Part shown: positions 41,761-45,945 of the stretch, in pieces
Numbering within the stretch: the stretch's first letter is position 1
How the letters are laid out: every line of letters starts with the position of its first letter
Origin: Planctomycetota bacterium
GTDB lineage: Bacteria; Planctomycetota; UBA1135; UBA2386
Direction: 5' to 3'
DNA length: 64,000 nt
Assembly (NCBI GenBank): GCA_016872675.1
Contig: VGZG01000008.1
Location: 1 to 64,000 of the forward strand
Translations under genes and position numbers: made by a program
Notes under the pieces: generated by a model
What the model was told of the DNA's origin: nothing
The model's database searches: none
Seen by the model: only the letters and a program-made list of their open reading frames with translations

Positions 41761-43518
41761 ATGGCGGCAGCGCGCGACAAGGAACAGCCCGGCGACGCGA
41801 CCTACCAGGTCGTCGCGCGCCGGTTCCGGCCGACCTCGTTCCAGCAGATGGTCGGCCAGGACGAGGTCCTGCAGTCGCTGCGCGTGGCGCTGCAGCAGGG
41901 CCGCGTGCCGCACGCGTTCCTGTTCTCCGGCAGCCGCGGCGTCGGCAAGACGACCTCGGCGCGCATCCTGGCGCGCTGCCTCAACTGTGCGAAGGGCCCG
42001 ACGCCGGAGCCGTGCGGCACGTGCGCGACCTGCGTCTCGATCCTCGATGGCAGCAACCCCGACGTGCTCGAGATCGACGCCGCCAGCAACAATCTCGTCG
42101 ACGATGTGCGGCGGCTGCGCGAGACGGTCGGCTTCGCGACCATGCAGTCGCGCTATCGCGTCGTCATCCTCGACGAGGCGCACATGATGACGAAGAACGC
42201 GTTCAACGCGTTCTTGAAGACGCTGGAGGAACCGCCGCCCGGCGTGGTGTTCGTGCTGGCGACCACCGAGCTGCACAAGGTGCCCGACACGATCCGCTCG
42301 CGCTGCCAGGTGCTGCTGTTCAAGCGCGTCGGCGAGGACGACCTCAAGCGGCGGCTCGGCGCGATCGCCGCCGCCGAGAAGGTGGCGGTGCCCGACGACG
42401 TGCTCGCCGAGATCGCCATGTCGGTGCGCGGCGGCGTGCGCGACGCCGAGACGGCGCTCGAACGCGTGCTGCCGCTGGCGCGCGAACTCGGCGCGAAGTT
42501 CGACCTCGCCGCCTACCGCGCGCTGGTCGCGCGCGTCGGCCTCGACGCGGTCGTCGAAGTGGTCGAACGCCTGCTCGCCGGCGACGCCAAGGCCGGCGTG
42601 CACTTCGCCCGCACGCTGCAGGAGCAGGGCGCCGACGAACGCGAGGCGCTCGGCGAGATCGTCGAGGCGCTGCGCTGGCTGCTGCTGCTCCGCATCGACG
42701 GCGCCGACACCGGGCTCGTGCCGGTCTCCGGCGCGCTGCGCGAACGGCTGCAGGCGATGGCCGCGGCGACCGACGACAAGCGGCTCGACGCGATGGTGGG
42801 CGCTGGCCTGCTCGGCCGCGAGCGGCTGCGCCGGCTCGAAGACCGTGGCGTCGTGTTCGAGGTCGCGATGGTGCGCATGGCCGAAGCCGGCGCGCTGCCA
42901 TCGCTCGGCGACCTCGTCGCCGAGCTGCGCGCCGGCGGCGTCGCCGCGCCGGCCACCGCGCCAAAGCCGCTGTCCGGCGCCGGCGCGCGCCCGCCGGCCG
43001 GCGGGCCACCGGCGTCCGCACGCGCCGCCGCGCCGTCGTCGCCGAAGCCGGGCGCGCCGCTGCCGCCGGCCGCTGCCGGCGACCTCAAGGGCCGCGTGCT
43101 CGGAGCGCTCAAGGACAAGCCGCTGCTCGCCGGCACGCTGGAGCAGTGCGCGTTCCAGGGGCCGGACGCCGACGGTCGCGTCGTCGTCACGCTGCAGACC
43201 GAGCGCAAGATGTACCACGACCGCTTGGCGTCGACGGCGGTCCAGCAGGACCTCGTGCGCGCCATGCAGGACGCCGCCGGCCGGCCGCTGAAGGTCGAGT
43301 GGCGGCTGCCGACGCATGGCAACGGCGGCGTCGCTGCGCCGTCGCCGAAGGTCGATCCGGGCGACGCCACCAAGCGCGTGATGGGCGCCTTCAAGGGTCG
43401 CGTCGTGCAGGTCAACCCCGAGGATCGTGCGGCGAAGCCGAAGGACCCGGAGGCGCCGGCGAACGACGGCGGCAGCGATGCGCCGCCATGGGACGGCGGC
43501 GGCAACCTGCAGGAGTGA
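41761..43518 (+). CDS. dnaX: DNA polymerase III subunit gamma/tau
   Basis: 585 residues. Clamp-loader ATPase. Motifs: Walker A GSRGVGKTTSARILARCLNC (about residue 57), the zinc-binding Cys set between about 72 and 93 (CLNC, CGTC, ATC), Walker B VVILDEAHMMTKNAFNAFLK (about 135), and sensor 1 FVLATTELHKVPDTIRSRCQ. Domain III and an Ala/Pro-rich linker follow (residues 410-445), then the tau-type C-terminal region with LKGRVLGALKDKPLLAGTLEQ. A slippery A/T heptamer for a programmed frameshift was not seen. Its stop codon abuts the tandem repeat at 43519. Confidence 0.95.
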   Translation: MAAARDKEQPGDATYQVVARRFRPTSFQQMVGQDEVLQSLRVALQQGRVPHAFLFSGSRGVGKTTSARILARCLNCAKGPTPEPCGTCATCVSILDGSNPDVLEIDAASNNLVDDVRRLRETVGFATMQSRYRVVILDEAHMMTKNAFNAFLKTLEEPPPGVVFVLATTELHKVPDTIRSRCQVLLFKRVGEDDLKRRLGAIAAAEKVAVPDDVLAEIAMSVRGGVRDAETALERVLPLARELGAKFDLAAYRALVARVGLDAVVEVVERLLAGDAKAGVHFARTLQEQGADEREALGEIVEALRWLLLLRIDGADTGLVPVSGALRERLQAMAAATDDKRLDAMVGAGLLGRERLRRLEDRGVVFEVAMVRMAEAGALPSLGDLVAELRAGGVAAPATAPKPLSGAGARPPAGGPPASARAAAPSSPKPGAPLPPAAAGDLKGRVLGALKDKPLLAGTLEQCAFQGPDADGRVVVTLQTERKMYHDRLASTAVQQDLVRAMQDAAGRPLKVEWRLPTHGNGGVAAPSPKVDPGDATKRVMGAFKGRVVQVNPEDRAAKPKDPEAPANDGGSDAPPWDGGGNLQE

Positions 43519-43784
43519 GCGCCGCGGGGCTGGCGGCGTGATTCGCCAACCGTTGCTCCCCGCGTAGCGCCGGCGACCCAGCGCCTGCTGCGGCGGCGTG
43601 TGGAACGTCCATGGAGCCGGCGCCGCGGGGCTGGCGGCGTGATTCGCCAACCGTTGCTCCCCGCGTAGCGCCGGCGACCCAGCGCCTGCTGCGGCGGCGT
43701 GTGGAACGTCCATGGAGCCGGCGCCGCGGGGCTGGCGGCGTGATTCGCCAACCGTTGCTCCCCGCGTAGCGCCGGCGACCCAGC
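43519..43784. repeat. 101-bp tandem repeat, 2.6 copies
   Basis: Copies begin at 43519, 43620 and 43721; the third is cut off after 64 bases. By eye the copies are identical. Each unit holds a nested hairpin: CGCGGGG (43523-43529) with CCCCGCG (43558-43564), enclosing TGGCG/CGCCA (43531-43535 with 43544-43548). A second small dyad lies in GGAACGTCCATGG. The array fills the space between the stop of dnaX (43518) and the stop of the convergent surface-protein gene (43787), so it may act as a terminator on both strands. Confidence 0.95.
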
Positions 43785-43786
43785 AA

Positions 43787-45742
43787 TCAGTTCAGGCCGA
43801 TGACCTGCACGATTGCGTTGCTCGACGACGTGATCAGGTCGGCTGCGCCGAACAGGCCGCCGAGCGTGACGAACTGCGCGTGGATCGTCGTGCCGGAGAA
43901 GCCTGGCGGAACGGCCAGTGGCACGGTGCCGACCGCGGTCGACGCCGGCAGCACGAAGAGCTCCCACAGCGTCGCGCCGGTCGTCGTGCTGAGCATGCAG
44001 CCCGGCGCGGTGATCGTCGGGATCTGCAGGCCGGGGCGGCTCGACGCGAGGTCGATCAACTGCGCGCCGAGGAGCGTGCCGGCCGGCACGTTCGTCGCGT
44101 TCCACGTTGCGGTCTGGCCGGGGTAGAGGCGGCCACCGTACTGCGCGCCGCCGGCGTTCGGCGTGGTCAGCGCGACCTGCCCGATGTTGCCGACGCCGCC
44201 CTCGGGTTGCGTGCTGAACGGCGCCTCGAGCGACAGGTCGCGGTTCTGTGGATCGGCGGCGTTGACGCCGGCGAGGCCGCCGATGCGTCCTGGCGAGAAG
44301 CCGACCATCGCGGCGTAGCAGTTGACGGTCACCGTCGACGCGCCGACGTAGGTCGGCGTGCTGCCGTAGCGGTACTGCACGAGGCCGTTCTCGAAGAGGA
44401 CCATCTGGAGGGTCCAGCGCGCATGCCCGTTGACGCCCGTGCCGCCGACGATGTTGAACGGCGCGACGTCGAGCCAGGTGACGTAGCAGATGTTGTTGCC
44501 AGCGCCGCCGGTCGAGTCGACCAGCACGTGCAGGCCGGCGTTCGGGTTGAGGCCGACGTTGCGCTGCATGTTGAGGTCGCTCCAGAGGATCGCCAGACGC
44601 CCGCCGCTGTAGAGCGGCGCGGTAGTGCCGGTGACCGGATCGCCGAGCAGGCGCGCGGCCACGGCGGCGAAGGCGCTGTCGGTCATCGCGCCATCCAGCC
44701 ACACGAAGCCGTTCGTGCTCGGCACGATCGTCGTCGTCGCGCCGCCCGGGAACGGGAAGCTGAAGCCGAGCGGGAAGTTGACGACGCCGTCGTCGAGGAT
44801 GGAGTTCGGCGAGACGTTGACCTTGGTCAGGTCCGGAGCGGGGGCGCCGGAGGTGATGGTGTAGGTCGTCGGAGCGGAGCTGTTGTCCGGGATCAGCGTC
44901 AGGCCAGCGCCGAGGTCGAACCGCTGGCCGTTGACGAAGCCCTGGTAGAAGCTCGACGCGCTGCCGCCGCAGGCGCCGCCGTAGAATTCGTTGCTCGCCG
45001 CGACCACCGTCGTGTAGCCGCCCGGCCCGAGGAACTCGACGCCGATCACCAGCGGGTTGGCGTTGAGCGTGCCGGTCGCAGCGCCCGCAGCCGTCGCTGT
45101 CAGGCCCTGGCCGCGGATCTGCGCCAGCGTGCCGGTGGTGTTCTGCATGGCGATGAGGCCGAGCGGCGGCGCGTTGGCCGGCGCCGTCGGGACGTTGACG
45201 TCGATCAGCAGGTTGGGCTCGGCGCCGAGCGGGTTGAACTGCGCGACGATGCCCATCGCGACGAGGTCGAGTTCGATGTTCCAGTTGTTGGGCATCGTGC
45301 CGGCCGCCGGCGCGACGGTGACGTTGGTCGTGCCGACTGCGCCCATCGTCGTCGTGCTCGGCGCGGCGGGCGCGAGGTTGGCCGCGAACGTCGTGCTCAG
45401 TGCGCCGGCGGCGAGCGTCGTCGAGCCGACCTGCACGGTGACGCCGTTGTAGACCTGGCCGCCGAGGTTGGTCTCCGCGTCCTCGCCGCGGAACTTGATC
45501 TTGGTGATCGTGATCGGGCCGGTGACGCCCGAGTTGCCGGTGAAGTGGCTGCCGTTGTAGACGATCTGGAAGCGGCTGGGACCGGCGGCGCGCCACCAGA
45601 CGCCGGAGCCGGTGTTGCCGAGTTGGCTAGGGTTCTCCGACAGGTAGTGGTTGTCGGGCAGCGTCAACTGCTGGGTCTGCGCGACGAGGCCGCTGGCGGC
45701 GAGCGCCAGCGCGAAGGCGACGAGGGGGTGGGAGTGGGGCAT
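43787..45742 (-). CDS. Large secreted surface protein B, paralogue of the one at 16638
   Basis: 651 residues from ATG 45742. Signal peptide (LVAFALALAASGLVAQ). Beta-rich, Asn/Thr/Gly-rich, with NHYLS, then FQIVYNGSHFTG, VTGPITITKIKFRGEDAE, TNLGGQVYNGVTVQVG, a middle part with VTYVTW-like NNICYVTWLDV, and a C-terminal part with SSRPGLQIPTI, TAPGCMLST and SSNAIVQVIGLN. These segments line up with the paralogue at 16638-18716 in the same order. No enzyme motif is visible. Probably cell-surface or extracellular; function unknown. Confidence 0.7.
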   Translation of the reverse strand: MPHSHPLVAFALALAASGLVAQTQQLTLPDNHYLSENPSQLGNTGSGVWWRAAGPSRFQIVYNGSHFTGNSGVTGPITITKIKFRGEDAETNLGGQVYNGVTVQVGSTTLAAGALSTTFAANLAPAAPSTTTMGAVGTTNVTVAPAAGTMPNNWNIELDLVAMGIVAQFNPLGAEPNLLIDVNVPTAPANAPPLGLIAMQNTTGTLAQIRGQGLTATAAGAATGTLNANPLVIGVEFLGPGGYTTVVAASNEFYGGACGGSASSFYQGFVNGQRFDLGAGLTLIPDNSSAPTTYTITSGAPAPDLTKVNVSPNSILDDGVVNFPLGFSFPFPGGATTTIVPSTNGFVWLDGAMTDSAFAAVAARLLGDPVTGTTAPLYSGGRLAILWSDLNMQRNVGLNPNAGLHVLVDSTGGAGNNICYVTWLDVAPFNIVGGTGVNGHARWTLQMVLFENGLVQYRYGSTPTYVGASTVTVNCYAAMVGFSPGRIGGLAGVNAADPQNRDLSLEAPFSTQPEGGVGNIGQVALTTPNAGGAQYGGRLYPGQTATWNATNVPAGTLLGAQLIDLASSRPGLQIPTITAPGCMLSTTTGATLWELFVLPASTAVGTVPLAVPPGFSGTTIHAQFVTLGGLFGAADLITSSSNAIVQVIGLN

Positions 45743-45945
45743 GGCGATTGGCGCGATCGGGAATGGCCGCGGCAACCATGCGGCGGCAGCACCGCACGTT
45801 AGCCGATCCCGCTGGCGCCGGCAGGGGCGGTGCGCCCATCGGCGGCGGCGTCCCGGCGCCTTATTCGGGCCGGCGAATCCGACGTCGTGTATTGACCATC
45901 CCGTCGGGCACAGAGCACCATTGGATCGCGGACTCGGAGGTACCC

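Follow-up and report, generated by a model that had tools for sequence, protein, structure and literature searches.

A tandem array behind a surface gene of a Planctomycetota bacterium as a probable local amplification of a REP-like two-hairpin element found at stop codons

The window, which is the whole stretch of 64,000 nucleotides analysed here, contains dnaX, whose closest relatives are found in Planctomycetota MAGs, and a convergent gene for a surface or secreted-type protein. The gap between both genes is occupied by a tandem repeat (43519-43784; period 101, 2.63 copies, 100% matches, 0 indels), which reaches a score of 532 with TRF compared to 84 for the runner-up array in the window. 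The array begins on the base directly after the dnaX TGA (43516-43518), with which the dnaX ORF ends at 43518, and on the other side two bases (43785-43786) separate it from the stop codon of the surface gene. Unit 2 is an exact copy of unit 1, and the third unit (64 bp) is the same as unit 1 from its first to its 64th base. In a preliminary description the locus was regarded as a perfect 101-bp repeat of identical copies filling the gap up to two bases before the surface-gene stop, and this is borne out. The array consists of 70-bp cores and two identical 31-bp spacers in the order core-spacer-core-spacer-core. The cores correspond to the second hairpin (H2) of an element that in related genomes comprises two hairpins, H1 and H2. 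The features are given below; bit scores refer to the covariance model R1, which was built from 16 aligned cores.

41761-43518, plus strand: dnaX (start approximate), convergent neighbour of the array
43787-45775, minus strand: surface/secreted-type gene, no Pfam match; its 3' end carries the array
43787-43789, minus strand: TGA stop codon of the surface gene, anchor of the array, followed by TT (43786-43785)
43519-43784, no strand: whole tandem array, 101 bp x 2.63, TRF score 532, 100% identity
43715-43784, minus strand (sense): H2 core copy 1, gene-proximal, 80.8 bits, E 2.6e-15
43684-43714, minus strand: spacer between cores 1 and 2, 31 bp, CATGGA plus 25 nt, at the place of H1 in relatives
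43614-43683, minus strand: H2 core copy 2, 80.8 bits
43583-43613, minus strand: spacer between cores 2 and 3, 31 bp, identical to the spacer between cores 1 and 2
43513-43582, minus strand: H2 core copy 3, 63.7 bits, outer pairs broken

The outer stem of core copy 3 is incomplete because its far end (43513-43518) is the 3' end of dnaX. The array fits the gap exactly since it is anchored at the surface-gene stop and the end of dnaX abuts its far side; dnaX adjoins the array by chance of position. A gene-proximal H1 is not recognisable in the window array, where the order is stop-TT-core, and judged from its position the inner spacer may be a degenerate H1. A comparison to Rfam gave only sub-threshold matches to the full RAGATH-31 model (RF03101), seen on the minus strand of the window at 43517-43773 in all three copies (E 0.018-0.049); with 26.2 bits they stay below the Rfam gathering cut-off of 71.8, and 12 other loci gave no match. 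Searches of plasmid records and of distant DNA with the repeat also gave no match.

The window MAG comprises 3.58 Mb in 182 contigs and the array lies inside a contig of 69 kb. Its copy number is uncertain, as a 266-bp run of identical units can collapse in a draft MAG. Contig ends adjoin 24 of 84 arrays (e.g., L131, L148, L151, L153, and L160) and the repeats seem to break short-read assemblies, so that array copy numbers are unreliable and have to be read as lower bounds. The element would explain the frequent contig breaks just behind genes in these MAGs. The idea that the arrays themselves are artefacts of MAG assembly, for which these contig ends would speak, has a negligible probability: independent assemblies hold arrays of the same family, including one in the orthologous dnaX gap, and the covariation described below cannot arise from assembly. 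For the element family as a whole an artefact is already excluded.

Searching for further copies, as the preliminary description had proposed, showed that its counter-case of a repeat present only once does not apply. No close second copy of the 101-bp unit is present in the window genome; its contig C9 carries a diverged second array (98 bp x 3.1), a relative of 68-75% identity, and many more arrays are found in related genomes. BLAST and TRF revealed arrays with units of 77-112 bp and a common core in the same genus and family, and many element loci have tandem units of 72-138 bp. In the sister species G001 the gap between the orthologues of dnaX and the surface gene (L046, also L089) holds its own 81-bp x 2 array. 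Copies inside one array are usually near-identical and different arrays diverge, which fits the recent expansion that had been suggested from the window alone. With R1, at least 9 cores were found in the window genome and up to at least 61 copies per genome in the search; at least 18 of the 61 relatives are carriers, and all of these belong to family f1. No copies were among the matches listed in 27 genomes of other families of the same order, and a phylum-wide draw of 392 genomes gave matches in 2 only, both members of the same family. Judged from these searches the element appears to be restricted to one family of uncultured Planctomycetota. Literature searches (mostly open-access) yielded no account of such repeats in Planctomycetota, and a two-hairpin repeat anchored at stop codons is apparently undescribed.

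Two side observations were made in the course of this survey. Genomes of three genera (G005, G016, and G009) have a common element subfamily with 80-84% core identity, which is above the expectation from kinship and reflects either horizontal spread or mis-binned contigs. At locus L009 (G000:C58, 1685-2007) a 42/84-bp unit forms a minisatellite of 3.8 copies with 99% identity, whose length is a multiple of three.

The anatomy of the element was read from 80 loci and the window, giving 135 cores in 84 arrays. The full element has about 105-117 bp and consists of H1, a short linker (often nTTGC), H2 and often a CTTGGA-type end. H1 comprises about 30 nt, starts at the stop codon, frequently has an unpaired mid-stem position, and its 3' arm ends with TCA or TCAG. 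As TCA(G) is complementary to (C)TGA, the stop codon closes the H1 stem. H2 comprises about 65-70 nt with a long stem, a 2-nt AC bulge and an almost invariant inner GCGGG/CCCGC. Most arrays are whole elements joined head to tail, since the period equals the element length; their last unit is cut off at varying points, and many internal units keep the TCA though no stop codon precedes them. In 49 full elements both sides had changed in 19 of 29 pairs. Both hairpins covary strongly, with 138 double-changed cells compared to 42 after shuffling and no more than 44 in slid controls (104 versus 32 for the core alone), and four full elements fold with z-scores of -3.4 to -8.1. For the hairpin that the preliminary description had seen in each copy, folding of a single 101-bp unit of the plus strand was uninformative as it was no better than for shuffles, but the comparison between elements supports the structure.

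The position of the element was determined relative to gene calls made with a codon model of our own, which had been trained on four genes of the window. In all 71 arrays with a gene visible on that side the element lies behind this gene in sense orientation. This orientation is found in all 33 codirectional gaps (p = 2e-10). Divergent gaps are absent among the 60 with an element and make up 35 of 128 in the background. A called stop codon is found at the start of the element in 67 of the 71 arrays, and in the other four the element starts at a CTGA with which an open frame of 167-273 codons ends. Among the 67 called stops TGA is used in 65, likewise counted as NTGA, and the preceding base is C (CTGA) in 47. 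A plain CTGA target does not explain this pattern, because intergenic CTGA outside of stops is equally common (64 versus 55) yet unused, and CTGA anywhere in intergenic DNA was ruled out as the target. H1 stems of at least 7 bp occur at 43% of the gene ends with an element, compared to 8% of the remaining gene ends and 4% in shuffles. As other gene ends resemble shuffles, H1 was ruled out as an ordinary terminator of all genes.

The preliminary description had further proposed a stacked bidirectional terminator, common to dnaX and the surface gene. The convergent gap and the strong hairpins on the sense strand agree with this, but it has to be regarded as highly improbable: the orientation of the element is strict and it is tied to a single gene, which in the window is the surface gene and not dnaX, and it occurs in the 33 codirectional gaps as well. 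The gene on the far side lies at a variable distance from 0 to hundreds of bp and is not convergent in 33 of 60 gaps. In addition, no terminator-like site with a T-run is present in 43000-44500, and the linkers of other loci have TTT at most.

The genes in front of the elements are mixed and mainly housekeeping, with DnaA (twice among the 67), PolA, GroEL, GAPDH, PEPCK, AdoHcyase, aconitase and ArgJ. One functional class or a transposase as the common feature of these genes was ruled out, as no family occurs in more than 2 of the 67. Behind unrelated genes of one genome the elements are 90-99% identical over 103-111 bp, their flanks are unrelated, and the homology between them starts sharply at the stop codon. 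Such likeness of up to 99% shows that copies of the element have spread recently. For eight loci of G001 the orthologues in G000 were compared. The coding homology reaches the stop and then ends, and 6 of 8 orthologous sites in G000 have no recognisable element while 2 have apparent remnants. In 7 of 8 cases the G000 gene has its terminal TGA at the position of the G001 stop, so the stop is independent of the element. No clean empty site was seen among these eight loci, because the intergenic DNA of G000 is too diverged from that of G001.

These data also bear on the possibility that the element is a functional but immobile 3'-end module of two hairpins, a terminator or exonuclease block, which is selected behind strongly expressed genes and homogenised by gene conversion. 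The strict sense orientation at stop codons, the compensatory changes in both hairpins and the presence behind housekeeping genes such as GroEL, GAPDH, PEPCK and DnaA would be expected of such a module. However, this origin is doubtful in view of copies with 99% identity behind unrelated genes with unrelated flanks and of the patchy presence between sister species; moreover, most genes have no such hairpin and a T-run is lacking.

REP elements are linked to Y1 (HUH) transposases, and these are numerous in the genus. The Y1/HUH transposase with the motifs NDHLH and Y...N (L109, G000:C98:4449-4910; loci L095-L124) is amplified there, with at least 45 copies in G005, 21 in G001 and 20 in G006, and is also present in G034 of another family; G000 has only one Y1 remnant, which is broken by a stop. 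A motif like TCTGCTAATTCA / ATTGCGGAATCA is found just upstream of the Y1 start. None of the Y1 loci examined has the element as the own flank of the Y1 gene, and at the one locus where Y1 neighbours an element, this element belongs to the convergent gene. Numbers of Y1 genes and elements are uncorrelated, as seen in G006 (20 Y1, at least 1 core) and G011 (0 Y1, at least 27 cores), and in G009 and G011, which carry elements, a threshold of E <= 5 still gave no Y1 match. A scan of five carriers with a strict 18-base motif for class 3 TnpA (NHVH, YV[VI]xEQ) gave one unrelated match only, which by inspection is a metallo-beta-lactamase-like frame. A true REP/RAYT system, in which a Y1 (HUH) transposase would use the hairpins with their CTGA/CnGA foot as ssDNA substrates in the way described for class 3 TnpA of Planctomycetes (PMC6006769), is thus quite unlikely, since the examined Y1 genes lack an own flanking element, Y1 and core numbers do not correlate and the motif scan found no class 3 gene. 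In its favor are the imperfect hairpin, which is preceded by CTGA as a foot and has an unpaired position in mid-stem, the high copy number with tandem clusters and the abundance of Y1 proteins in the genus.

We therefore favor, with a probability of about 0.68, that the window array arose by local head-to-tail amplification from a two-hairpin element which is REP-like and non-coding and belongs to one family of Planctomycetota. New copies of this element would insert immediately 3' of a (C)TGA stop that is already present, and TCAG may guide the entry by pairing. The element would be transcribed as 3' UTR and fold into two stable hairpins, which may define or protect the mRNA 3' end, and only the sense position behind stops would persist for this reason. 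Slippage or unequal recombination may then generate the tandem copies. The window array would have lost its gene-proximal H1, leaving H2 and a degenerate H1 as the repeat unit.

A more far-reaching version, which we regard as tentative and on balance unlikely, is a mobile element with a new insertion rule, entering solely directly behind stops and in sense, where its TCAG pairs with (C)TGA and a 3'-UTR hairpin forms on the stop as its base. If true, this would point to targeting through mRNA or through a link with translation or transcription, and to an as yet unknown enzyme that carries it out. It is an old question if the palindromic repeats of bacteria should be seen as selfish DNA or as regulators in 3' UTRs. 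The present element family makes this question cleanly testable: its members share a single orientation and a single starting point at the stop, both hairpins evolve by compensatory changes, unrelated housekeeping genes are followed by almost identical copies, and there are carriers with and without Y1 transposases.

Among known systems, integron attC sites are imperfect palindromes as well, with 60-140 bp and a fixed orientation relative to the gene they follow, but the element loci are scattered singly and do not form cassette arrays. An attC site was ruled out as by inspection the aligned elements have no RYYYAAC...GTTRRRY boxes; the AAC in them bulges out of one arm and has no matching GTT. 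Intrinsic (Rho-independent) terminators also have a GC-rich hairpin directly 3' of the stop in sense, whereas the element has no T-run, a near-identical dispersed sequence and a second, bulged hairpin, and is found behind some genes only. The structures associated with class 3 TnpA_Y1 are atypical hairpins with a CnGA foot in high copy and are known from Planctomycetes (PMC6006769). Compared by their published description, the element has a CnGA-type foot too, but its carriers yielded no class 3 TnpA by the motif tried. Of the known kinds, REP elements come nearest to the element. In difference to GTAG REP, the foot of the element is CTGA and a GTAG/GTGG-type foot 5' of the hairpin was not found ((C)TGA in 65 of 67), no linked RAYT was found, and the element combines two different hairpins in direct order over about 110 bp, forms head-to-tail arrays and lies at the stop codon in sense almost without exception. 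Foot and transposase thus set it apart from the GTAG/RAYT group, while by analogy the element may well work like a REP. In this respect the preliminary description was right in kind when it considered a REP-like element, as the repeats are dispersed, intergenic, imperfectly palindromic and locally amplified. GTAG REPs and BIMEs are likewise short imperfect palindromes, dispersed in high copy 3' of genes and in tandem-repeating clusters; their feet often provide the stop codon, and the clusters include units that are tandemly repeated together with flanking DNA (PMC3733652).
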